Positions 10,681-22,516 of a stretch of DNA of 22,516 nt are shown piece by piece (within the stretch, counting starts at the first letter, position 1; each line of letters begins with the position of its first letter). Where the stretch lies: positions 1-22,516 of the IMG/VR virus record IMGVR_UViG_3300048694_000058; one strand, given 5' to 3'. The stretch comes from a virus. The translations under genes and the position numbers were made by a program. Under the pieces are notes generated by a model that saw only the letters and a list, made by a program, of their open reading frames with translations, made no database searches and had not been told where the DNA came from.

Positions 10681-10690
10681 AGTATTTATT
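10681..10690 (-). promoter_or_regulatory. Possible late promoter overlapping the upstream stop, before gp25
   Basis: Minus-strand AATAAATACT contains the TAA stop of the preceding gene (10686-10688). With T4 spacing, +1 would fall at 10677, the A of the gp25 ATG, so the transcript would be leaderless. The match is as good as the other two elements, but the stop codon supplies part of it, so confidence is lower. Confidence 0.45.
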
Positions 10691-11318
10691 GACTTAAAAT
10701 TGTGATAGCGTACCGGCCGCTATTGTAAGAGTTCGCACCATTTCCTATCCCTTGATAACGCCAACTATATGCACCTACTGCACCTAATGTCCAACCAACA
10801 TAAATCATGCCTGCAACAACATCGTCAGTATCTGCGTCTTGTATGCTACCATTTGCCACTAATGCATTGTATAAATCGTAAACAACTTGATATGCTAAGT
10901 GTTCTTGACTAACAGTATTAGACAAAAATCCTTGTAAACTAGTAATATTGTAGTTATAAGATGCGTAAGAGTTAGAAGTTTTGATAGTAACTGACTGCCA
11001 ACAATTAGTGTAGTTTACACAATCTGTTCCATAGTGCTGGTTAGATCCTGTAGCTAACAATCCATAGTTTTCTAATGTTTGTGTAGAAAATTGATAGCGA
11101 CCTAGTTTATTATCTGCACCAACTAATGTATAGTCCCAACCACTTTTATCGTAAGCAACCTGAGCTAATAAATTTTGTACTTCTGCAGAAGTTAATCTGT
11201 ATATGTTAGCATCAGCAGGCAAACTAGGCGGAGCATCCACACGGCCAAGCCAGCTTGGCGGTAAAGGATTTTGAATTCCTTGTACGCTTGCGTGTTGTGG
11301 TCCAATATTTTGTAACAT
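10686..11318 (-). CDS. Putative lysozyme/transglycosylase-fold baseplate protein, catalytic Glu apparently absent
   Basis: A 210-residue protein. After a Pro-rich N-terminus, residues 50-88 read like the start of a lysozyme-superfamily domain: a short helix, then SGWDY (59-63), then KLGRYQFS (71-78) and a TLENYGLL helix. This parallels the ESGG-x-Y...G-x-YQFS pattern of phage cell-wall hydrolases. At the place of the usual catalytic Glu it has Lys58, with Asp57 beside it. The C-terminal half has helices SQEHLAYQVVYDLYNALV (137-154) and a Trp-rich GWTLGAVGAYSWRYQG. It lies directly after the gp5-like spike gene with a one-base TAATG overlap, and that spike lacks its own lysozyme domain. I infer a separate baseplate muralytic protein or a non-catalytic structural remnant. 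The gene is real; the enzymatic role is unproven. Confidence 0.6.
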   Translation of the reverse strand: MLQNIGPQHASVQGIQNPLPPSWLGRVDAPPSLPADANIYRLTSAEVQNLLAQVAYDKSGWDYTLVGADNKLGRYQFSTQTLENYGLLATGSNQHYGTDCVNYTNCWQSVTIKTSNSYASYNYNITSLQGFLSNTVSQEHLAYQVVYDLYNALVANGSIQDADTDDVVAGMIYVGWTLGAVGAYSWRYQGIGNGANSYNSGRYAITILSQ

Positions 11319-12919
11319 TATAATGCGTCCGCCACTGCGTTATATCCGCCATTACCTGCAACCATTTGTGCAACACCTGCGGCTAATTGTATTTTACCAT
11401 TGCCTGCGGCACTACGGTCCCATGGTTCATGTGCTGGAGCTACAGAACAACTAGTCATAATCTTCGACACGCCCGATGCCCATGATTGTCCTAGTAGTCC
11501 GGTGTCTGGTAACATATTTGGTATGGGCGGAATAGCGGGAACTATCTTAGGTAATCCACTTAGTGGGCTTGCACAGTTTAATGCTAATCCAGATCCATCA
11601 ATTGATACAACTCCGCTGGCTCCCATTTTTAATATACCCACTGCACTAACTGTTGTGCCTGCTCCACCAGCAAGTGATAATAATGCTCCTGCTGATACAC
11701 TAACTGCACCAAGCGCACTAACAGATACTAATCCGTTGGCTTTTACTGTTGTTGCCAATATAGAACTAGTAGTCAGTGTACCGACAGAGTTAATACTAAT
11801 ACTTGGAATAATACCTGCGGCAGCCGCAACGTTTACTCCATTTGGTCCGGCTACGCTGTTTACATTTGGTAATGCATCTATTTTAATATGTGGGGCGCAC
11901 ATCGTAATAGCCGAATCAGAGTGCATGTTAATTGCACCAGCACTACGTAAATTAAATCCGCCGCCAGCAAATACGTTGATTGCGCCACTTGCGCTAAATT
12001 CTAACCATTGGCTACCCGAAGCACTAGCAATGTATAATATATCTTCGGTGTCATTCATTAAAATTTGATGTCCACCGGTTGTTCGTAAGCGCATCAATTG
12101 ATCTGAGCCATCTGCGGCACCATCGTCCATAACAAAACTGTGGCCGCCGGCACGATAAAATACAACATCTGCGTTGCCTGAAACTTGATCACTTGGTGTG
12201 CCTTTACGTCCAGGGGTGCTTATACCGTATACATTACTTGGGGCTTCACGCATACTGCTAGAACTAATTGCGCCACGCACAGGATCTTTATCAAGGCCTT
12301 GTTTAACATAACTCATTGTAGCGCCAGGTTGTGCATACCTTGGTGTGTTCACCAATCCATCAGATGCAAATGCTGTTGAGTCAGAAATATTATATTCGCC
12401 AACTGGCACAACAGAGTCACTACTTAACGATCCGTCAACTGCATCTACACCAGTTGGTTTTGTATTACTTGCGCCACCGATGTTGCGCCCATTACCAGGA
12501 ACCATATGATGATTTGGACTATCGTACACACACGCAAACCAATATCCTCGTTGTAAATCTCCGGCAACAAACATAACTAATACTTTATTACCAACGTCTG
12601 GCGGTACACACCAGAATCCATAGCTTTGTCCACTAGTAAATGACCCATCGGGGTTGTTGCCTTGGTCTGACCCAAACGTAGTGCCGTAGAAAGGACTTGC
12701 ATAACTTACAACAATACCATTAGATTTGCTACCAGCGTACGGATTTGGTTCTGATCCAGTTAACTCAGGAATAGATACCAGTAACTGGCCCATACGACTA
12801 CCTTCTACGTGACCTTGTACTATAGCTTCATACGGTCCTGAGTCTACACTGGTTCCAGTTCGTTTAGAATCGGCTTTTGCGTTTTTACCGGGGCCGCGTT
12901 GTTGTTGTTCGGTTGCCAT
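11318..12919 (-). CDS. gp5: Baseplate hub spike, gp5-like, without internal lysozyme domain
   Basis: A 533-residue protein. After a charged N-terminus, residues about 30-150 look like the OB-fold of gp5 and VgrG proteins: YEAIVQGHVEGSRMGQLLVSIPEL, then SYGFWCVPPDVGNKVLVMFV and GYWFACVYD. The middle holds FVMDDG, MRLRTTGGHQILMND and ASGSQWLEFSASGAINVF. From about 310 onward short alternating repeats rich in G, S, A and V (INMHSDSAITM, VSVSALGAVSVSAGALLSL) suggest the trimeric beta-helix needle. In T4 gp5 a lysozyme domain sits between these two parts; here none is visible. A small lysozyme-like gene follows at once. The gene before it is a gp27/gpD-like hub candidate, the expected partner of gp5. 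AGGA lies 10 bases before the ATG. Its likely role is the membrane-piercing tip of the tail tube. Confidence 0.85.
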   Translation of the reverse strand: MATEQQQRGPGKNAKADSKRTGTSVDSGPYEAIVQGHVEGSRMGQLLVSIPELTGSEPNPYAGSKSNGIVVSYASPFYGTTFGSDQGNNPDGSFTSGQSYGFWCVPPDVGNKVLVMFVAGDLQRGYWFACVYDSPNHHMVPGNGRNIGGASNTKPTGVDAVDGSLSSDSVVPVGEYNISDSTAFASDGLVNTPRYAQPGATMSYVKQGLDKDPVRGAISSSSMREAPSNVYGISTPGRKGTPSDQVSGNADVVFYRAGGHSFVMDDGAADGSDQLMRLRTTGGHQILMNDTEDILYIASASGSQWLEFSASGAINVFAGGGFNLRSAGAINMHSDSAITMCAPHIKIDALPNVNSVAGPNGVNVAAAAGIIPSISINSVGTLTTSSILATTVKANGLVSVSALGAVSVSAGALLSLAGGAGTTVSAVGILKMGASGVVSIDGSGLALNCASPLSGLPKIVPAIPPIPNMLPDTGLLGQSWASGVSKIMTSCSVAPAHEPWDRSAAGNGKIQLAAGVAQMVAGNGGYNAVADAL

Positions 12920-12931
12920 TTATTGATATTC

Positions 12932-15088
12932 CTATTGTCTTGCTTGAACGCCGTTAGGTACTGCATTAGTATTCAACACCGGTGTTGCTGGTAGTATTGT
13001 AATTGGTGCAACAGGGGTATTTAAAATAGTAGCACCCGATGTTTGTGCTACAGTAGACGGTGTCGAAGTATTTGAAGATGTTGATGTTCCGTTTGTTGTA
13101 TTACTTTCTCGCTGATTTGCCTGCGAAGTAGTTGTAGAACCAGTAGTTGACACAGGTGTTTGATTTACTAGTTCTTGATTAAAATATCTAGATAAACTTA
13201 ATTCTTGTTTAAACTGCCCTTTGTCAAACACGCTTTTAATAGTAAGTACATTATATTGTCCAGAGAAGATAGAAGAAGCTGTACCGTTTCTAGTCATCGG
13301 TGGATAAACCAATCCATCATTTAAATAGTCAGTATCAATATCAAGCGGTGTGTTAATTTGTAGTCCGATTACTAACTGTCCTGCGTCCATTCGGAGGTGC
13401 CCATATTTCAGCGCAAAATCATAGTTATTCATGGTGTCCCACCCATTGTAGTTTGAATCTGCTACTGTTGGGTCTGGGGTATATAACCAGTTGTCTTGTT
13501 TTAATAACGTAGGATCGCCGACTATTTCAATTTTTGCTGTTAATAAGTCGGTTCCTTGCGCCGCTCTCTTAGCTTCCAATACGTCGGCTGCAATGATAGC
13601 GTCTGACTGACCACGCAGGCCATTTGATACACTAGCATCATTAAGTATTGAATGTATTCTAACCGGCGACAATATTGGAGTATTTTTTAACTGTGGTAAT
13701 ACTGAGTTCATTAACGCACTTGGGGTAAGCCCAAACCCGCTTGATGCTGTAGAGATTGCTTGATTTTGATTTGCAGAATCTGAAGTTACTTGACTTGCAT
13801 TTATAGCATTACTATCGACAATAACTGATGTATAGAATCTACAATTAAAATCTATATCAAGTTTCATAACGTCCAGATTTTCACCGGTGTATAGATAGTC
13901 ATACAGTTTAATAGTAAACGGTCTTGTATCTGCTAGTTGCCCAGTATCCATTGGATGCGGACCGCCCCAGGTTGGATATTGATGTATATTAACTCCGTAT
14001 GCATAAGCCTGTTTATTACGTATAATATCTTGGCTATCTGCGCCTGTAACTTCAGCACCGTTGCCGGCTAGTCCCCCAGGAGTTGCTACGTATGTTATTT
14101 TATAGGTATTAAGTATGTTTGCTAGATTATTGTTTATAGCATCGGGACTAGGTGGGCCAAGAGCAAGTTGATCAGTTACCCAAAAAGTACATTGTGCAAA
14201 TGCTTTATGTATTATAGAAAATAGGTCCTGATCTTTTGTAAAGTTAAATGGCACTTTAGTTAAATCTGTGTCTGTGGCATTAGGATTAGTTCCGCTCAAT
14301 GGTATTGTGTCTGGGCGAATTAATTTAGATGAACCAATGTCCGGATCTATGTTAAACTGCAATGTATCTGCTAATTGTCTATGACCAAGTTGGACTTCAT
14401 CGAGGTACCACTGATTATACTGATCTGCTACTCCGTCTAGCAGTTCCTTTACAGTACCGGCAGTTACTTGCATAGCTTTAGGTAGTTTACAGTTTGTGGA
14501 CATTGACACTTCAAAGTTTGACGGGGTTGCTGTACATGAATATTTTGTGCCAGCATTAGAGACCTTCATCTTCATAGTTGCAAGTCTAATTGGAAAACGC
14601 TTTCTAAATAAACCAGTCTGATTATTTGTAATCATTGCGCCAGTATCGTCGTACCCGCGAAAATCAATTTGTAATAAAAGATTTTGTTCTAAGTAGTTTC
14701 CTATACCTTGAGAGACAGCATAGTTAACTAATGATGTTACTAATGTTGACCCATATGGTTCTGTAATGTCAAACCTGCAATTAATTTGATCACTATCGCC
14801 AGCGGTTGTAGTCGGTTGAATATGTGTAGTTAGTTCAACATTAGAAAGATAATAGTTTAACCCAGCGGTAGTTGGCAATCTACGATCTGGGTATAATCCA
14901 GAATCTTCGGCAATTACATAACTGTTAGGAAACTCTAAAGCAAGTGCTTGGTCAACATCAGTTGTATTAGCCAATGCCGTATAATCAGTAATATCCAACC
15001 ACCACAAACTTAATGCATACGAGTATGATGCATAATTATGTAAAGGGTTCGGTACTGGTATATTTGGTAAAGGTTGTTTTACTGACAT
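12932..15088 (-). CDS. Putative baseplate hub protein (gp27/gpD-like position)
   Basis: A 718-residue protein. It opens with NPLHNYASYSYALSLWWLDI (residues about 14-33), a start I recall from hub-like structural proteins of T4-like marine phages. The region to about 250 is beta-rich (LTTHIQPTTTAGDSDQINC, RFDITEPYGSTLV, LLLQIDFRGYDDTG), followed by a domain around TVKELLDGVADQYNQWYLDE and KDQDLFSIIHKAFAQCTFWV. A second beta-rich part near 500-620 includes GLQINTPLDIDTDYLNDGL and FSGQYNVLTIKSVFDKGQFKQELSLSR, resembling the late part of gpD/gp27-type proteins, where the motif G-x-Y-x-V-x-x-I-x-H/S-x-F is typical. The last 80 residues are Ser/Thr/Asn-rich and probably disordered. It lies between gp53-like and gp5-like genes. 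No Shine-Dalgarno sequence is seen; the stop of the gp53-like gene is 6 bases upstream, suggesting coupled translation. Hub identity is an inference from position and pattern. Confidence 0.65.
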   Translation of the reverse strand: MSVKQPLPNIPVPNPLHNYASYSYALSLWWLDITDYTALANTTDVDQALALEFPNSYVIAEDSGLYPDRRLPTTAGLNYYLSNVELTTHIQPTTTAGDSDQINCRFDITEPYGSTLVTSLVNYAVSQGIGNYLEQNLLLQIDFRGYDDTGAMITNNQTGLFRKRFPIRLATMKMKVSNAGTKYSCTATPSNFEVSMSTNCKLPKAMQVTAGTVKELLDGVADQYNQWYLDEVQLGHRQLADTLQFNIDPDIGSSKLIRPDTIPLSGTNPNATDTDLTKVPFNFTKDQDLFSIIHKAFAQCTFWVTDQLALGPPSPDAINNNLANILNTYKITYVATPGGLAGNGAEVTGADSQDIIRNKQAYAYGVNIHQYPTWGGPHPMDTGQLADTRPFTIKLYDYLYTGENLDVMKLDIDFNCRFYTSVIVDSNAINASQVTSDSANQNQAISTASSGFGLTPSALMNSVLPQLKNTPILSPVRIHSILNDASVSNGLRGQSDAIIAADVLEAKRAAQGTDLLTAKIEIVGDPTLLKQDNWLYTPDPTVADSNYNGWDTMNNYDFALKYGHLRMDAGQLVIGLQINTPLDIDTDYLNDGLVYPPMTRNGTASSIFSGQYNVLTIKSVFDKGQFKQELSLSRYFNQELVNQTPVSTTGSTTTSQANQRESNTTNGTSTSSNTSTPSTVAQTSGATILNTPVAPITILPATPVLNTNAVPNGVQARQ

Positions 15089-15094
15089 ACTTGA

Positions 15095-15397
15095 TTATAG
15101 CCCAATTGCTTTATACACTATCGCTGGAGTGGGAACATATATAATAGTCCCGGTTACAAAGCTCAACAATGGATCTAATAAAATATCTGGGTTACGGACT
15201 GAGAATACCCACCATAGATCGCTATTTTTATACATATCGTATGCTAACAAGTCTGGGCGCAGATTATATGCGCTATCGATTTGATAAAGAGCATCGGTGG
15301 TATCTGGCTGTATAGTTTTTCCTGCCCATACGTCAAGGAATGGTCCCCAAGTTTGTGTTCCATAGTACGGACTTGATTTGCTATATGTTGCAGTCAT
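15095..15397 (-). CDS. gp53: Baseplate wedge protein gp53-like
   Basis: A 100-residue protein. The core YNLRPDLLAYDMYKNSDLWWVFSVRNPDILLDPLLSF with the ending GTIIYVP is the pattern of gp53-like and LysM/gpX-like tail proteins: a short domain in which a molecule that 'walks' down from a helix to N-x-D-L-W-W is followed by a P/L-x-D-P turn and a final strand I-x-[VL]-P. It is small compared with T4 gp53 (about 196 residues), so only the LysM-like core seems to be kept. It starts in a TAATG overlap with the upstream gene's stop. In T4 gp53 closes the wedge ring next to gp6 and gp25, which are encoded in this same operon. The alternative is a generic tail LysM protein; I favour gp53 from the context. 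Confidence 0.75.
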   Translation of the reverse strand: MTATYSKSSPYYGTQTWGPFLDVWAGKTIQPDTTDALYQIDSAYNLRPDLLAYDMYKNSDLWWVFSVRNPDILLDPLLSFVTGTIIYVPTPAIVYKAIGL

Positions 15398-16407
15398 TAT
15401 AGGAAGCCTCCGTTTTGTGAACCTTTAGTATTAGTTGCACCTTTATTAGCATATTGTGGTTGTTGTGTTGCACCAAATGCAGATGCTGGCATACCTGCGC
15501 CAGCGTTGTTAACTAATGCGCCGGCGGCAAAATCAGATAAACTAAATCCTTGGCTTTGTGCATAACGACTGTAGACTGGTTGTAGACTTAATGTTATTGT
15601 GCTAGTTGTTGGCATGCGTGTACTATTTAATCTGTAGTTTTGGAACTGAGGATTATATCCTGTGTTTGTTGCCGCAGGTTCCGGAATGTCCATATAATCA
15701 CAATCACTAGGCATGGTGTGGGCAAAACTTGTAACTACACAAGGAACGTTAGGCAAGTAATATTGTCCATAACCATTTAAGTAAACTATAGGAGGCGGGT
15801 TGCCTGCTAATGGATCAGCACCAAAGAACATTTTTGTACACGCTCTAAAGAAATATACAGCGGCCAATAAGTACTGACCATCATTTACGTTTTGTACTGT
15901 AAAATCTGCATTGATTGTGATTGCGGCAACTTCTGAATTATTGTATGCGTATTGTTTATAGTTATTGTGTGTTAACTCTGTTGGTGTATAGTTGGCATTA
16001 TGTGTAACAGCAACTTGCGGAGTATAAGGGAAAACTACACCAACACGTTGTGATCCACTACGACCAAATAAATTACTAACCTGTCCTTGTATTGCACTTG
16101 TGCCTCCGCCAGTTTCTCTAACTAATGGACTTAATAACGTATTGTTTGGGTCATTGTAAAAATAGTTACTACCCGGGGCTAGACTAACACGGACACGCCA
16201 ATCATTTGATGCGTTTGGATATATAACCACAGGGCTAGGTCCAGTAGTTTTATTACTGTACTGGAACATGTCTGCTACATTCTGACGTGTGCTTGCAGAA
16301 CTCATGCCAACAGATCCTAACAAGCTAGATGTTATAGCCGAGCTTATTTGAGAGCCTGCGCTTCCAGTTGGTCCATTTGGTAGTACTGCATTTGGTAAGA
16401 TTGCCAT
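15397..16407 (-). CDS. Putative tail-tube initiator/baseplate cap protein (gp48/gp54-like)
   Basis: The first gene of the late operon, 336 residues. The N-terminal 60 residues are Ser/Ala/Gly-rich and probably flexible. The core has WRVRVSLAPGSNYFY (about 69-83), VGVVFPYTPQVAVTHNANYT, then AAITINADFTVQNVNDGQYLLAAVYFFRACTKMFFG, then PCVVTSFAHTMPSDCDYMD, then TSTITLSLQPVYSR near 270-283. The last two blocks resemble the C-terminal strands of T4 gp48 (a P-C-x-I-x-S-[IF] block, then S-T-[FI]-T-L strand), and the body is of the tube-like beta type. This is my recollection of the fold pattern, not an alignment. The final 45 residues are Gly/Ala/Gln/Asn-rich. AGGA sits 8 bases before the ATG and a late promoter lies 21 bases upstream. 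It overlaps the gp53-like start by TAATG. A tube cap or initiator role is probable; assignment to gp48 versus gp54 is open. Confidence 0.6.
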   Translation of the reverse strand: MAILPNAVLPNGPTGSAGSQISSAITSSLLGSVGMSSASTRQNVADMFQYSNKTTGPSPVVIYPNASNDWRVRVSLAPGSNYFYNDPNNTLLSPLVRETGGGTSAIQGQVSNLFGRSGSQRVGVVFPYTPQVAVTHNANYTPTELTHNNYKQYAYNNSEVAAITINADFTVQNVNDGQYLLAAVYFFRACTKMFFGADPLAGNPPPIVYLNGYGQYYLPNVPCVVTSFAHTMPSDCDYMDIPEPAATNTGYNPQFQNYRLNSTRMPTTSTITLSLQPVYSRYAQSQGFSLSDFAAGALVNNAGAGMPASAFGATQQPQYANKGATNTKGSQNGGFL

Positions 16408-17472: not shown

Positions 17473-18489
17473 ATGACTAATCTATTCAAAAAAGCCGCTG
17501 TATTTACAGACATACATTTTGGACTGAAATCAAACAGTACTCTACACAACGAGGACTGTTTGAATTTTGTTAAGTGGGCTACCCAAAAAGCCAAGGAAGA
17601 GGGTTGCGAAACTTGTTTATTCTTAGGCGACTGGCATAACAATCGTGCTAGTATCAATATCTTAACACTTCAATACAGTTTACAAGCACTGGAGCACTTA
17701 AATGCTAACTTTGAAAAAACTTACTTTATTCCTGGAAATCACGATTTATATTACCGCGATAAACGTGATGTACAATCTGTGGAGTGGGCCAAACACCTCT
17801 CTAACATTCACATTTGTAACGATTGGTTTACTATGGGCGATGTTACTATTGCTCCTTGGCTCGTTGGCGATGACCATAAGAAACTTAAAAAACTTAAAGG
17901 CAAATACTTATTCGGGCACTTCGAACTCCCAGGATACTTAATGAATGCCATGGTTGCTATGCCAGACCACGGTGAGATTACTGGTAATGATATGCAAGGA
18001 TTTGAGCATGTATATACCGGGCACTTCCACAAGCGTCAAACGCAACGCAACGTAACTTATGTAGGTAACTGCTTTCCGCACAACTATGCCGACGCCGGAG
18101 ACGATGATCGCGGCATGATGATATTAGAGTGGGACAAAGAGCCCGAGTTCCATTCGTGGCCCGATCAACCTAAGTATCGTGTATTTGGATTAAAGGATGT
18201 GCTAAACCACACAGAAACTATGCTTAAACCCAATATGCATGTGCGTGTAAACTTAGACGTAGACATTAGCTACGAAGAAGCTACGTTTATTAAAGAAACA
18301 TTCATTGATACTTACAAGCTACGTGAAATTACCCTTATCCCCGCAAAGGTAACAGACTTAACCGAATACGAAATACAAGGCAACATTGAATTTGAATCAG
18401 TAGATCAAATTGTATTTGGACAGTTAAGCACCATTGATAGTCAACAGTTTAATAAAAACTTACTGTTAGATATCTATAGAAATCTTTAA
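17473..18489 (+). CDS. gp47: Recombination endonuclease subunit gp47 (SbcD/Mre11-type nuclease)
   Basis: A 338-residue calcineurin-like metallophosphoesterase, about the length of T4 gp47. The metal-binding motifs are in order: D13-I-H15, GD53-W-H55, GNHD (88-91), GH149, and G-H184-F-H186. With the gp46 ATPase it forms the Mre11/Rad50-type complex that resects DNA ends for phage recombination-dependent replication and host DNA degradation. The C-terminal 100 residues (NPNMHVRVNLDVDISYEEA onward) are the typical cap-like tail. The start is fixed by motif I lying at residue 13; it sits 7 bases after a promoter -10 box and has no ribosome site. Its stop overlaps the first radical SAM gene by TAATG, so the partner gp46 is displaced by two genes. 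The identification is secure. Confidence 0.94.
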   Translation: MTNLFKKAAVFTDIHFGLKSNSTLHNEDCLNFVKWATQKAKEEGCETCLFLGDWHNNRASINILTLQYSLQALEHLNANFEKTYFIPGNHDLYYRDKRDVQSVEWAKHLSNIHICNDWFTMGDVTIAPWLVGDDHKKLKKLKGKYLFGHFELPGYLMNAMVAMPDHGEITGNDMQGFEHVYTGHFHKRQTQRNVTYVGNCFPHNYADAGDDDRGMMILEWDKEPEFHSWPDQPKYRVFGLKDVLNHTETMLKPNMHVRVNLDVDISYEEATFIKETFIDTYKLREITLIPAKVTDLTEYEIQGNIEFESVDQIVFGQLSTIDSQQFNKNLLLDIYRNL

Positions 18490-19481
18490 TGTATAAATTT
18501 GAGGACTTACGCAGATTAGAAATTGAGCCTACAAATACTTGCCAGGCTCGCTGTCCTCAATGTCTACGCACACCAGTAGACGGTACTATCAACAAAACGC
18601 TTAAAGATGAATTATCGTTAGACGTAATCAAACAACAAATCCCTGTAGAATTTTGGAATCGTTTAACTAGCATTAACTTCCAAGGTAGTACAGGCGATGC
18701 ACTAGCTTATCCTGATTTAGTAGATTTAATTGCTTATATAAAGTCGCATACCCAAGCGCAATTTAGCATACACACAAATGGTGGCTTAGGCTCACGTAGT
18801 ACATGGGAAGGTTTAGCTCAAGTGTTAAATACTAATGACAAGGTAGTATTTGGCATAGATGGCTTAGCAGATACTAATCATTTATATCGTGTTGGTGTAG
18901 ACTTTGACACAGTAATCAAAAACGCAAAAACATTTATTAGTGCAGGTGGGCAAGCACACTGGCAATATATTACATTTAAACATAATCAGCATCAAGTAAA
19001 AGAAGCAGAACAATTAAGCAAAGACTTAGGATTTAAGGAGTTTTACTTACGCACTTCAGGTAGGTTTACTAATACTAACTCGCAGGATGTTTATGTAGAC
19101 GGTGTACTAACACATCATATTGAACCTAGCGACATTAAGTTTGAGCAAAGTATACATTTCGAAAACAACTTAAAAAGTAATATTAAGTCAGCTAAGATTT
19201 CATGCGAAGCAGAAAATACTAAATGGGTAGCAATTTACGCAGATGGAACTGTGTGGCCTTGTTGTCATTTAATGGGGTGGCATCAAACGCACAACCATAA
19301 TATTTCTAAATTAATTAACCGTAAGCTAGACGATGTTATTGAAGATTATAACAATATTAGTTTGCATACGCACACACTAGATGAAATTATTAATAGCCCT
19401 GTGTTTCAAACAAACTATCCAACAAGTTTTGATAGCGCACAACCGATTCCAGTATGCGTAAGCCACTGTAGGAAACAATGA
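18489..19481 (+). CDS. Radical SAM enzyme with C-terminal auxiliary-cluster cysteines
   Basis: A 330-residue protein with CX3CX2C at C18, C22, C25, which binds the 4Fe-4S cluster that cleaves S-adenosylmethionine. The core continues with INFQGSTGD (about 62-70) where GGEP is more usual, IHTNGG and VFGIDGL, consistent with a TIM-barrel radical SAM domain. C-terminally, C239, C258-C259, then C323 and C327 resemble a twitch/SPASM-type region for an auxiliary cluster, with the pattern W-V-A-I-Y-A-D-G-T-V-W-P-CC typical of such domains. Enzymes of this build modify peptides, sugars or small molecules; the substrate here is unknown. The start overlaps the gp47 stop by TAATG without its own ribosome site, so translation is probably coupled to gp47. 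The stop overlaps the next gene. No precursor peptide gene is found nearby. Confidence 0.87.
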   Translation: MYKFEDLRRLEIEPTNTCQARCPQCLRTPVDGTINKTLKDELSLDVIKQQIPVEFWNRLTSINFQGSTGDALAYPDLVDLIAYIKSHTQAQFSIHTNGGLGSRSTWEGLAQVLNTNDKVVFGIDGLADTNHLYRVGVDFDTVIKNAKTFISAGGQAHWQYITFKHNQHQVKEAEQLSKDLGFKEFYLRTSGRFTNTNSQDVYVDGVLTHHIEPSDIKFEQSIHFENNLKSNIKSAKISCEAENTKWVAIYADGTVWPCCHLMGWHQTHNHNISKLINRKLDDVIEDYNNISLHTHTLDEIINSPVFQTNYPTSFDSAQPIPVCVSHCRKQ

Positions 19482-20875
19482 ACAGTCAAGAACTACGAGC
19501 CACTTTACCATATAACTTACTAGTATTTGCCGATGTAGCAACTGTTAGTAATACGCCAACGGAGGCTTATAAGTTATTGGCTAGTGTACGTAAAGATGCA
19601 TTTGCAGACAACGAGCGCATTGTATTTTATGGCAATAATCCCGAACCTGGTTTAATCAAACATATTAAACAAGCAATCGATTTATTAGACATTGGCGAAT
19701 TCTTTTGTTTATTTTATGATGATATTGTAGACGCAGAAGTACATAGCACAAGATATAAAATCGCCGATACAGTATGCCCGTTATTATGGAGCCATTTAGA
19801 AGTTAGACACAACGGCGATGTTTACCCATGTTGCGTTAATCAAACTCCAGTGGGTAATGCTAATGAAAATTCATTGCAGGAAATATTTAACAACGATAGT
19901 ATGGTATTGTTACGTAGACAGCTAGCAACGGGGGGTCGCCCGGATAGTTGCGATCATTGTTGGCGTTTAGAAAAGCAAGGAGTATCTAGCAATCGTAATT
20001 GGCACGTAGGTAAACATGCTAATAGTTTTTATAGTAGCTGGCATGATGATATTAAAATTCGCAGTTTAGATCTTAAGCCAAGTAATACTTGTAATTTTAA
20101 ATGTCGCACTTGCAATCCGAACAATAGTTCATTGATTGCCGACGAAGTTAAACAATATAGCGCGATCCCGGTTGTTAGTGATCGTTGGGATTCATATGGC
20201 GACTATACTTGGGCAGAATTGGATACATTACTACCCAATATAGAAAACCTAGACTTCTTTGGCGGTGAGCCATTTTTGCTTAAAGAGTTAAAACACTTCC
20301 TACGCAATGCAGTTGATTCTGGGCACAGCAAACACATACGTTTACACTTTAACACCAATGGTAGCATATTTCCAAAAGATATAATTGATACACTCGTTCA
20401 ATTTAAAGAAGTAGACTTAGCATTTAGCATAGACGACGTCGGCGAACGATTTGAATTAACTCGCGGCGGCTCTTGGGCAGAGGTTGAAGCTAACATACTT
20501 AAATTTAAAGAGCTAGGCTTTAAGCCATATATCTTCCCTACAATTAATATTCAAAACGTATTATATCTGGATGAATTAATTTCGTGGGCAGACTCTAATA
20601 ATATCCCATATACATTTAACTACTTAGAATTTCCAAGATATTTTAATATCAATTCTTTAACCCCAGAAGCCAAAGAATTGGTTATTAACAAGTACACTAA
20701 TTCAACTAATCCGTTGCTACAACAAATTGCCGAACGTGTTAAAAAATCCAACAGCAGTGATGGCAAACAATTTGTTAAACAGATGAAATGGTTTGATTAT
20801 ATTCGAAATCAAAAGTTTAGTAACACACATAAGGAAATTGCCCAAGCGATGGGCTTTAACTTGCATTCTCTATAA
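19478..20875 (+). CDS. Radical SAM enzyme with N-terminal twitch-like domain
   Basis: A 465-residue protein in three parts. Residues 1-95 have no recognised family. Residues 96-165 hold C100, then NGDVYPCC (C118-C119), then C158-D-H-C161, the twitch-type auxiliary-cluster pattern, here placed before the catalytic domain. From 200 comes the radical SAM core: C205-N-F-K-C209-R-T-C212, then FFGGEPFLLKEL (about 261-272), LHFNTNGS and VDLAFSIDDVGERFELTRGG. It matches the architecture of the 'twitch domain-containing radical SAM protein' family known mostly from phages and environmental bacteria. The ATG overlaps the preceding stop (ATGA), with AGGA 4 bases upstream, so it is co-translated with the other radical SAM gene; the two may act on the same substrate. 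The last codons contain the -35 box of the gp46 promoter. The reaction is not predictable. Confidence 0.9.
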   Translation: MNSQELRATLPYNLLVFADVATVSNTPTEAYKLLASVRKDAFADNERIVFYGNNPEPGLIKHIKQAIDLLDIGEFFCLFYDDIVDAEVHSTRYKIADTVCPLLWSHLEVRHNGDVYPCCVNQTPVGNANENSLQEIFNNDSMVLLRRQLATGGRPDSCDHCWRLEKQGVSSNRNWHVGKHANSFYSSWHDDIKIRSLDLKPSNTCNFKCRTCNPNNSSLIADEVKQYSAIPVVSDRWDSYGDYTWAELDTLLPNIENLDFFGGEPFLLKELKHFLRNAVDSGHSKHIRLHFNTNGSIFPKDIIDTLVQFKEVDLAFSIDDVGERFELTRGGSWAEVEANILKFKELGFKPYIFPTINIQNVLYLDELISWADSNNIPYTFNYLEFPRYFNINSLTPEAKELVINKYTNSTNPLLQQIAERVKKSNSSDGKQFVKQMKWFDYIRNQKFSNTHKEIAQAMGFNLHSL

Positions 20876-20898: not shown

Positions 20899-22516
20899 AT
20901 GTTTAAAATAAAAGATCTAACCGTTAAGAATTTTATGAGTGTAGGTAACACTACACAAGCAGTAAACTTTGACCGCAAAGATTTAACACTAGTTCTAGGG
21001 GAAAACTTAGACTTAGGCGGAGACGACTCCGGTGCACGTAACGGTACAGGTAAGACAACTATTATCAACGCATTGAGCTATGCCCTGTACGGTAACGCAC
21101 TTACAAACATTAAAAAAGATAACTTAATCAATAAAACAAACCAAAAGAACATGATGGTTTGTATTGATTTTGAAAAGGACGGCGTTGACTATCGCATTGA
21201 ACGTGGACGTAAGCCCAATGTAATGAAGTTCTTTGTTGGCGATACTGAAAAAGAAATCACCGACGACGCACAAGGCGATAGTAGAGAAACACAGCAAGAA
21301 ATTGAACGTATGCTTGGCATGTCGCACGATATGTTTAAGCATATCCTTGCACTTAACACTTATACTGAACCATTTTTAGCACTAAAAGCAAACGATCAGC
21401 GCACTATTATCGAGCAGTTACTAGGAATTACATTGTTAAGTGAAAAAGCAGATAAACTAAAAGAAGCAGGTAAAGCTACAAAGGATGCTATTACACAAGA
21501 GGAGTTCCGCATTAAAGCTGTAGGCGATGCTAATAAACGTATAGAAGAACAAATAGAAAGTTTAAAGCGCAGACAAACTTTGTGGAACAATAAACACGAT
21601 GAAGAGATTAACAAGATTCAAGATGCGATCGAAGAACTTCAGAAAATCAACATTCAGGAAGAGATTCAGACACACCAAAGTCTTAAGACATGGGATCAAA
21701 CTCGCAAGGATATCAATGAATTATCGTCGGCGATTAGTCGTGCAAAGTTGGACCTTTCCCGTGAAGAAAAGGCCGTTAGCAAATTATCAAAAGATATCGT
21801 GGCGCTGGAAGATCATACGTGCTCCACTTGTGGCCAAGAATGGCATGACGAAAAGCACGAACAGGTATTGGGACAACTCAAGGGAGAACTATCTGTGGCT
21901 GAAGAAGCCCAGAGAGGACATGCTACCCTCTTGGGTGAATTACAGCAGGCTCACACTGGGCTGGGCGTGTTAGGCCCTAAGCCCGAGACATTTTACGATA
22001 AAGAGTCCGATGCTATCCATCATCAAGCAAGTGTGGACAACTTAATCAAACAGCTTAATACTAAAGCAGTTGAAGTTGATCCGTATGTAGATCAAATTGC
22101 AGAAATGCAAACTACTGCGCTTGAGGAAATTAGTTATGATGTTATCAATGAGCTTAACAATCTCAAAGAACATCAAGAGTTCTTATTAAAGCTACTAACA
22201 AACAAAGATTCGTTTATTCGTAAACGTATTATTGATCAGAATTTAAGTTATTTAAATGCCCGCTTGGGTCAATACTTAGATCGTATTGGGTTACCACACA
22301 CAGTTAAGTTTAATAATGACTTATCTGTATCCATTACAGAACTAGGTAGAGATCTAGACTTTGACAACTTGTCACGGGGAGAACGCAACCGCTTAATTTT
22401 ATCCTTAAGCTGGGCGTTCCGTGATGTGTGGGAAAGTTTATATCAACCCATTAACTTGTTATTCATTGACGAGTTAGTTGACAGCGGTATGGATAGCTCG
22501 GGTGTGGAAAACAGTC
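20899..22516 (+). CDS. gp46: Recombination endonuclease subunit gp46 (SbcC/Rad50-type ATPase), 3' end cut by window edge
   Basis: 539 codons are present; T4 gp46 is 560, so only the last few dozen residues should be missing. Walker A is GARNGTGKTT (45-54), preceded by the insert GENLDLGGDDS that gp46 proteins carry. Two long coiled-coil stretches flank a zinc hook, C308-S-T-C311-G-Q. The ABC signature LSRGE is at 491-495 and Walker B LLFIDE at 520-525, followed by a D-loop. The protein uses ATP to open and close over DNA ends and to drive the gp47 nuclease, by dimerising through the head and the hook. The ATG lies right after the -10 of its own promoter. The partner gp47 lies 2.4 kb upstream, separated by two radical SAM genes. 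Identity is secure. Confidence 0.96.
   Translation, partial: MFKIKDLTVKNFMSVGNTTQAVNFDRKDLTLVLGENLDLGGDDSGARNGTGKTTIINALSYALYGNALTNIKKDNLINKTNQKNMMVCIDFEKDGVDYRIERGRKPNVMKFFVGDTEKEITDDAQGDSRETQQEIERMLGMSHDMFKHILALNTYTEPFLALKANDQRTIIEQLLGITLLSEKADKLKEAGKATKDAITQEEFRIKAVGDANKRIEEQIESLKRRQTLWNNKHDEEINKIQDAIEELQKINIQEEIQTHQSLKTWDQTRKDINELSSAISRAKLDLSREEKAVSKLSKDIVALEDHTCSTCGQEWHDEKHEQVLGQLKGELSVAEEAQRGHATLLGELQQAHTGLGVLGPKPETFYDKESDAIHHQASVDNLIKQLNTKAVEVDPYVDQIAEMQTTALEEISYDVINELNNLKEHQEFLLKLLTNKDSFIRKRIIDQNLSYLNARLGQYLDRIGLPHTVKFNNDLSVSITELGRDLDFDNLSRGERNRLILSLSWAFRDVWESLYQPINLLFIDELVDSGMDSSGVENS

Follow-up and report, generated by a model that had tools for sequence, protein, structure and literature searches.

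We analysed a phage genome fragment of 22,516 bases, the entire IMG/VR record IMGVR_UViG_3300048694_000058 (the window), in which two overlapping genes for radical S-adenosylmethionine (SAM) enzymes, here called A and B, lie between the recombination genes gp47 and gp46 of a large, uncultured, T4-like phage. We propose, with moderate confidence, that A and B are relocated cargo of a phage-borne pool of glycan-tailoring genes. B would be a moved duplicate of an N_Twi_rSAM enzyme (N_Twi; twitch domain ahead of the radical SAM core), the one at position m2 of a conserved cluster in related phages. The proposal rests on the sister relation of B to m2, the further N_Twi genes in all large records with B, the fixed order of the main cluster with its sugar-type genes, and its tail-fibre neighbourhood. 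It also draws on cargo from the same pool in the gp47-gp46 gap of relatives, carbamoyltransferase enrichment at bacterial loci, likeness to BlsE and BtrN, and the GT8 genes and radical SAM cassettes of pelagimyophages. The two genes and their parts are:

18489..19481, plus strand: gene A, a radical SAM enzyme of 330 aa with a C-terminal SPASM/twitch domain (Radical_SAM, PF04055, residues 12-155, 4.5e-9; SPASM, PF13186, residues 244-327, 1.3e-5)
18540..18563, plus strand: CX3CX2C radical SAM cluster motif of A, residues 18-25 (seen in the sequence; invariant in the alignment)
19218..19469, plus strand: C-terminal SPASM/twitch region of A, residues 244-327 (Pfam SPASM match; alignment)
19478..20875, plus strand: gene B, an N_Twi_rSAM protein of 465 aa (NF033640, 2.2e-91)
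19478..19762, plus strand: N-terminal extra domain of B, residues 1-95 (structure model and profile searches)
19775..19963, plus strand: SPASM/twitch domain of B, residues 100-162 (PF13186, 1.2e-12; BtrN twitch-like profile, E 1.5e-3)
20075..20536, plus strand: radical SAM core of B, residues 200-353 (PF04055, 6e-12; CX3CX2C at 205-212, GGEP at 262-265)

B belongs to NF033640 (N_Twi_rSAM) with 306.9 bits over residues 97-456 against a cut-off of 170, its SPASM match (100-162) preceding the Radical_SAM match (200-353), and to the radical SAM superfamily with a PF04055 score of 46.5 bits (curated cut-off 29.5). The cluster cysteines C205, C209 and C212 and the GGE motif are invariant in the alignments, as are nearly all of the auxiliary cysteines C100, C118/C119, C158 and C161. 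B shares with the family the permuted order, twitch then radical SAM, but differs by a 95-residue N-terminal domain and by its site in a phage recombination operon. In a literature search, no paper giving N_Twi_rSAM a function was found, and nothing relevant on radical SAM enzymes with carbamoyltransferases in phages.

A model of B built from six sequences was poor (predicted local distance difference test, pLDDT, 62), and one from a 44-sequence alignment was used instead (pLDDT 91.9, predicted template modelling score 0.85). In this model the N-terminal extra domain is well predicted as beta-alpha-beta-alpha-beta. Orthologues at the gp47/gp46 site share it, as do a small number of further N_Twi proteins and stand-alone open reading frames (ORFs) of the gap. 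These ORFs directly precede ORFs of a family termed f2 (match E 8.7e-6; 5e-6 and 7e-6 on iteration); a direct profile link between the extra domain and the whole f2 family was not found. At three gap loci (L111:6872-7950, L117:6894-7996 and L124:1831-3035) an f2-type protein is seemingly split into two ORFs, the first half having a domain in common with the N-terminal extension of B. A fold search of B against solved structures matched mainly the radical SAM core (SkfB, BlsE, anSME, MoaA, SuiB and viperin-like proteins), with template modelling scores of about 0.3 by query length. Against predicted viral proteins it gave near full-length matches, nearly all from uncultured Caudovirales, together with KVP40 and phi-pp2. 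Separately, isolate phages yielded no full-length match to B. A viperin-like antiviral role was rejected, since NF038283 scored 31.6 bits for B and 14.9 for A against a cut-off of 180.

Profile searches confirmed at least 552 relatives of B on viral contigs, which are partly redundant. About 57 of the 80 loci examined keep a fixed gene order, with local gains and losses. It runs through f19, f14, two GT8-like f3 genes, f7, a GT2-like gene, four to six N_Twi genes, f4, one or two SGNH genes, a carbamoyltransferase, an adenosine phosphosulfate (APS)-kinase-like gene (f9), f2 and f13. Glycosyltransferase-like and sugar-tailoring genes occur together in the main cluster of relatives. N_Twi genes group largely by their position in this order, and the gap orthologues of B are sister to the m2 group with 100% support in a Shimodaira-Hasegawa-like approximate likelihood-ratio test, the only support measure of this quick tree. 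Every record of at least 46 kb in which B occurs, ten in total, carries two or more N_Twi genes besides B; the ten include two near-duplicates, and the additional matches in G023 are located where its contig ends.

Among large relatives, the closest is G001 (91 kb), which carries 11 radical SAM genes, namely two pairs around gp46 and seven consecutive genes at 56.4-65.1 kb that come after tail-fibre genes. Genes of GT2-like, SGNH/DUF6071, carbamoyltransferase and APS-kinase-like type flank these seven, and epimerase and DegT genes lie a few kb further. The family heading the main cluster, f19, is fibre-like and Ser/Thr-rich, with 25-33% S+T against an all-ORF mean of 11.8% and a 99th percentile of 21.1%; its proteins hold 0-2 cysteines. 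Examples at L014:8606-9613 and at the starts of L125-L180 are candidate glycan acceptors. Two small proteins of the cluster, f7 (about 119 aa) and f14 (about 106 aa), are also conserved.

In bacteria, a carbamoyltransferase was found in 10 of 41 N_Twi loci, where about 0.26 would be expected by chance. The expectation is based on about 50 carbamoyltransferase matches in about 144 Mb (39 genomes with N_Twi), the 41 loci covering about 0.75 Mb; a few of the ten loci are near relatives of each other. Other recurrent neighbours were an ABC transporter ATPase, PhyH, epimerase, DegT, GDSL and UbiA. Some nominally bacterial contigs (L025-L028, L032, probably also L038) are likely misbinned phage contigs. 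Those of L025-L028 and L032, titled as Pelagibacter, Betaproteobacteria, Rickettsiales, Pacearchaeota and Rhodobacteraceae metagenome-assembled genomes, look phage-derived because they carry the phage N_Twi cluster order.

The genes flanking A and B in the window are:

10686..16407, minus strand: baseplate/virion genes, divergent from gp55 (synteny shared with Pseudomonas phage PA5oct)
16534..17424, plus strand: gp55-like late sigma factor, the left border of the island described below (phrog_12791, E 1.2e-79)
17473..18489, plus strand: gp47 / SbcD-like nuclease subunit (phrog_100, E 1.5e-60; Metallophos, 9.2e-6)
20899..22515, plus strand: gp46 / SbcC-like subunit, its 3' end beyond the contig (phrog_77, E 4.7e-92)

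The TAA stop of gp47 overlaps the ATG of A at 18489 (TAATG), and the TGA of A, ending at 19481, overlaps the ATG of B at 19478 (ATGA). These overlaps, the CX3CX2C motifs and the gene coordinates are exactly as the initial annotation gave them, and its claim that the pair was inserted between gp47 and gp46 is upheld by comparison with the isolate PA5oct. Judged by gp55 and gp46, the isolates nearest to the window are PA5oct, Sinorhizobium phage Phosso and their relatives. As in the window, the baseplate genes of PA5oct lie on the strand opposite to gp55-gp47-gp46, but there gp47 and gp46 abut; the insertion is a clean one. The gap of Phosso holds two small ORFs that carry no radical SAM annotation.

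From its gene content, the gp55-gp47-gp46-segE stretch appears to be a cargo island in environmental relatives. In eight contigs (L003, L004, L105-L110) A-B occupies the gap and another pair, A2-B2, lies downstream of gp46; L108-L110 have one extra ORF between B and gp46, which in L108 was tried as an AMP-binding enzyme without support. L002 has the same layout of A-B and A2-B2, with A cut by the contig end. A2 and B2 (L003:13178-15464; G001) lie directly 3' of gp46 and are 28% and 23% identical to A and B. Next come an ORF of 150 aa and a GIY-YIG endonuclease of segE type; the window contig, which ends in gp46, does not extend to the second pair. B stands without an adjacent A in L111, L112 and L115-L124, with or without other cargo, and between gp55 and gp47 in L113/L114, where L151 has a more distant B-like gene. 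Gap cargo of relatives includes a short DegT protein (6.1e-10), a TauD-like dioxygenase (1.4e-15) and a short-chain dehydrogenase/reductase-like protein (4.5e-5, below cut-off). SGNH-like (by motif), methyltransferase-like and pyridoxal-phosphate-enzyme-like ORFs were recognised by eye, with no model test. Families of the gap DegT and SGNH-like ORFs recur in the main clusters, which argues that both draw on the same gene pool. Action early in infection and a functional link to gp47, both suggested at first, found no support, the site looking like a cargo island.

A is a more conventional enzyme. Its PF04055 score of 37.1 bits (curated cut-off 29.5) places it in the radical SAM superfamily, while it falls outside NF033640 (29.8 bits against 170), its SPASM region being C-terminal. 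Cluster cysteines C18, C22 and C25 are invariant in the alignment, as are nearly all of the auxiliary cysteines C239, C258(/C259), C323 and C327. The seven C-terminal cysteine ligands of full two-cluster SPASM enzymes were not found in A; with about four conserved auxiliary positions, it resembles a one-cluster twitch enzyme. In the A family an invariant G-x-x-G-D replaces the usual GGE SAM-binding motif (residues 64-71 of A). Orthologues in L003, L004 and L105-L110 are 64-87% identical, and in a tree the gap A genes form a single clade, restricted to contigs with an adjacent A-B pair. The ratio of nonsynonymous to synonymous polymorphism (pN/pS) was 0.12-0.15 for A and 0.25-0.27 for B, with synonymous sites near saturation, indicating strong purifying selection on both; gp47, as a reference, gave 0.08-0.12. 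The initial reading of A and B as two real radical SAM enzymes with auxiliary clusters is thus borne out by Pfam and NCBIfam matches and near-invariant cysteines. Its twitch/SPASM-like regions hold in their C-terminal form for A, whereas in B the cysteine cluster lies N-terminal to the core.

Phages rich in radical SAM genes are already known, and the pair in the window is a variant of that kind. The T4-like Campylobacter phages CP220 and CPt10 carry 11-12 radical SAM genes in exchangeable clusters, as far as the consulted part of the report describes them (PMC2853527), and A matches one CP220 protein (28% identity over 56%). That part mentions a putative glycine amidinotransferase in the clusters and describes no N_Twi cluster with SGNH and carbamoyltransferase genes (PMC2853527). 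According to the consulted sections on pelagimyophages, their host recognition cluster combines GT8 genes with radical SAM cassettes next to tail fibres, and the GT8 genes were interpreted as modifying the host O-chain; N_Twi identity, a conserved paralogue order or a gp47-gp46 copy are not described there (PMC7029224). TARA_ERS488813_N000010, a T4-like environmental viral genome, has 12 radical SAM genes, which in the excerpt consulted are read through Fe-S metabolism, with no link to glycans drawn (PMC5332604). Among solved structures, the sequences nearest to A and to the twitch region of B belong to radical SAM enzymes acting on a sugar or cyclitol: by sequence profile, the best relative of A is cytosylglucuronate decarboxylase BlsE (7vob, 8e-8), and the twitch region of B resembles that of the aminoglycoside enzyme BtrN (4m7s, E 1.5e-3). 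Both similarities are remote, and substrate specificity is not transferable from them.

From these comparisons we infer a sugar substrate. B would have been duplicated from the m2 enzyme of the conserved cluster beside the tail-fibre genes and then moved; it would have gained its N-terminal extra domain and settled in the gp55-gp47-gp46-segE island, where A was presumably inserted beside it in one lineage. Both enzymes would work through a 5'-deoxyadenosyl radical, each probably aided by a single auxiliary Fe-S cluster, and their reaction on a sugar unit may be an oxidation, epimerisation, dehydration or deoxygenation. The glycan may be built and decorated by the GT8-like and GT2-like transferases, SGNH and carbamoyltransferase proteins, the kinase-like protein, epimerases and the DegT aminotransferase. 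Its destination would be either the phage's own Ser/Thr-rich fibre-like protein or a host surface polysaccharide, and it could benefit the phage by altering recognition or blocking co-infection. Judging by the neighbours, the cluster most likely edits surface sugars of phage or host rather than DNA, so that a surface glycan, one of the substrates named in the initial annotation, is favoured by the neighbourhood in relatives.

Several observations weigh against a glycan role. No substrate of A or B was identified, and the 22.5-kb window contains no glycan gene, the link to glycans resting on relatives. The glycosyltransferase labels are weak by profile, the GT8 identity of f3 depending on a glycogenin-like match with E 0.05-0.1. 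Family f2, suspected by motif to be GT10-like, had no PDB profile match and none to PF00852 above cut-off. In the fold search, the RiPP (ribosomally synthesised and post-translationally modified peptide) maturases SkfB, anSME and SuiB were as near to B as BlsE or MoaA, and carbamoyltransferase neighbours occur in natural-product clusters too. A more specific version of the glycan proposal is tentative: in environmental T4-like phages, a hitherto unnamed pathway with at least five co-conserved, position-specific N_Twi enzymes might supply the phage's own Ser/Thr-rich fibre-like protein with a glycan that is both radical-modified and carbamoylated. The pair between gp47 and gp46 would then be a peripheral member of this pathway, and the extra domain of B, which other cargo of the site shares, would serve for targeting.

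It is unlikely that A and B instead modify a protein or peptide in a RiPP-like manner, by epimerisation or by thioether or C-C cross-links, the target perhaps being a tail-fibre or virion protein or f7 or f14. Maturation of peptides or proteins is the role of most SPASM/twitch enzymes characterised so far, SkfB was the best fold match of B (4.5e-8), and the small conserved f7 and f14 ORFs flank the main cluster near tail-fibre genes. However, genes typical of sugar metabolism are among the neighbours (carbamoyltransferase, DegT, epimerase and glycosyltransferase-like), and the low cysteine content of f19 makes thioether chemistry on that protein unlikely. Nor was a precursor-like ORF found at the gp47-gp46 site, in the window or in relatives: A and B overlap without a gap, as first noted, no small ORF of 60 aa or more lies between them or next to them on the same strand, and relatives have no consistent small ORF. 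General Pfam and NCBIfam scans of A and B gave no model for a RiPP recognition element (PqqD-like), no search aimed at this domain having been made; the N-terminal domain of B is beta-alpha-beta in the model.

A slightly lower probability attaches to A and B being unrelated passengers, accidentally paired by independent insertions and acting on different substrates. The lone B genes and the B between gp55 and gp47 would fit this, as would the position of gap A as a clade of its own, for which no sister was resolved among the A-type genes that lie behind gp46 in these phages. Against it, A-B adjacency is kept in contigs where B is 58-70% and A 64-87% identical to the genes of the window, and it is mirrored in the same phage by A2-B2 and by cA329-c425. 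Among 77 non-redundant A-type genes of other phages, an N_Twi gene follows directly in 28 and precedes in 5, with mostly overlapping ends. These partners are about 30% identical to m2 or m3, about equally, and are not B orthologues, so the recurring pair is one of types, not of orthologues. The initial annotation saw one system of two enzymes, to be doubted if either gene occurred alone elsewhere in related phages. This was found in part: the pair persists in the closest contigs, but a second clade has a B orthologue without an adjacent A, and B orthologues are more widespread than gap A. On this sequence comparison, a two-enzyme system is plausible but not needed for B. Intermolecular electron transfer matters in the SPASM enzyme PapB (PMC10470005), and we speculate that A could act as a redox partner of B. 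A separate set of phage contigs (L187-L263) has radical SAM genes on both strands; these contigs encode a recurrent radical SAM protein (about 328 aa), another protein (about 200 aa) and a tandem of A-type and N_Twi genes.

We give least credence to hypermodification of phage DNA bases or nucleotides by a glycosyltransferase/carbamoyltransferase pathway with a functional gp47/gp46 site: sugar-decorated DNA hypermodification occurs in other phages and the pair lies beside recombination genes, but in G001 the gene of the thymidylate-synthase family encodes an ordinary enzyme of that kind (phrog_160; PDB thymidylate synthase, 7e-86), no hydroxymethylase was seen in annotated parts, most G001 N_Twi copies lie beside tail-fibre genes, gap cargo varies among phages while gp47/gp46 are constant, and many N_Twi relatives are in bacterial polysaccharide-type loci.

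Several earlier reports describe large numbers of radical SAM genes in phages but assign them no role. The comparison made here gives these genes a testable structure: N_Twi paralogues, each specific to its position, stand in a fixed order together with glycan genes by the tail fibres, and a satellite copy bearing an extra domain lies at gp47-gp46. If sugars on virions or host surfaces are indeed edited by radical chemistry, these phages would be a large, little-explored source of sugar chemistry. Such editing would also offer a mechanism for host recognition or superinfection exclusion, and would provide the first substrate class for the N_Twi_rSAM family.

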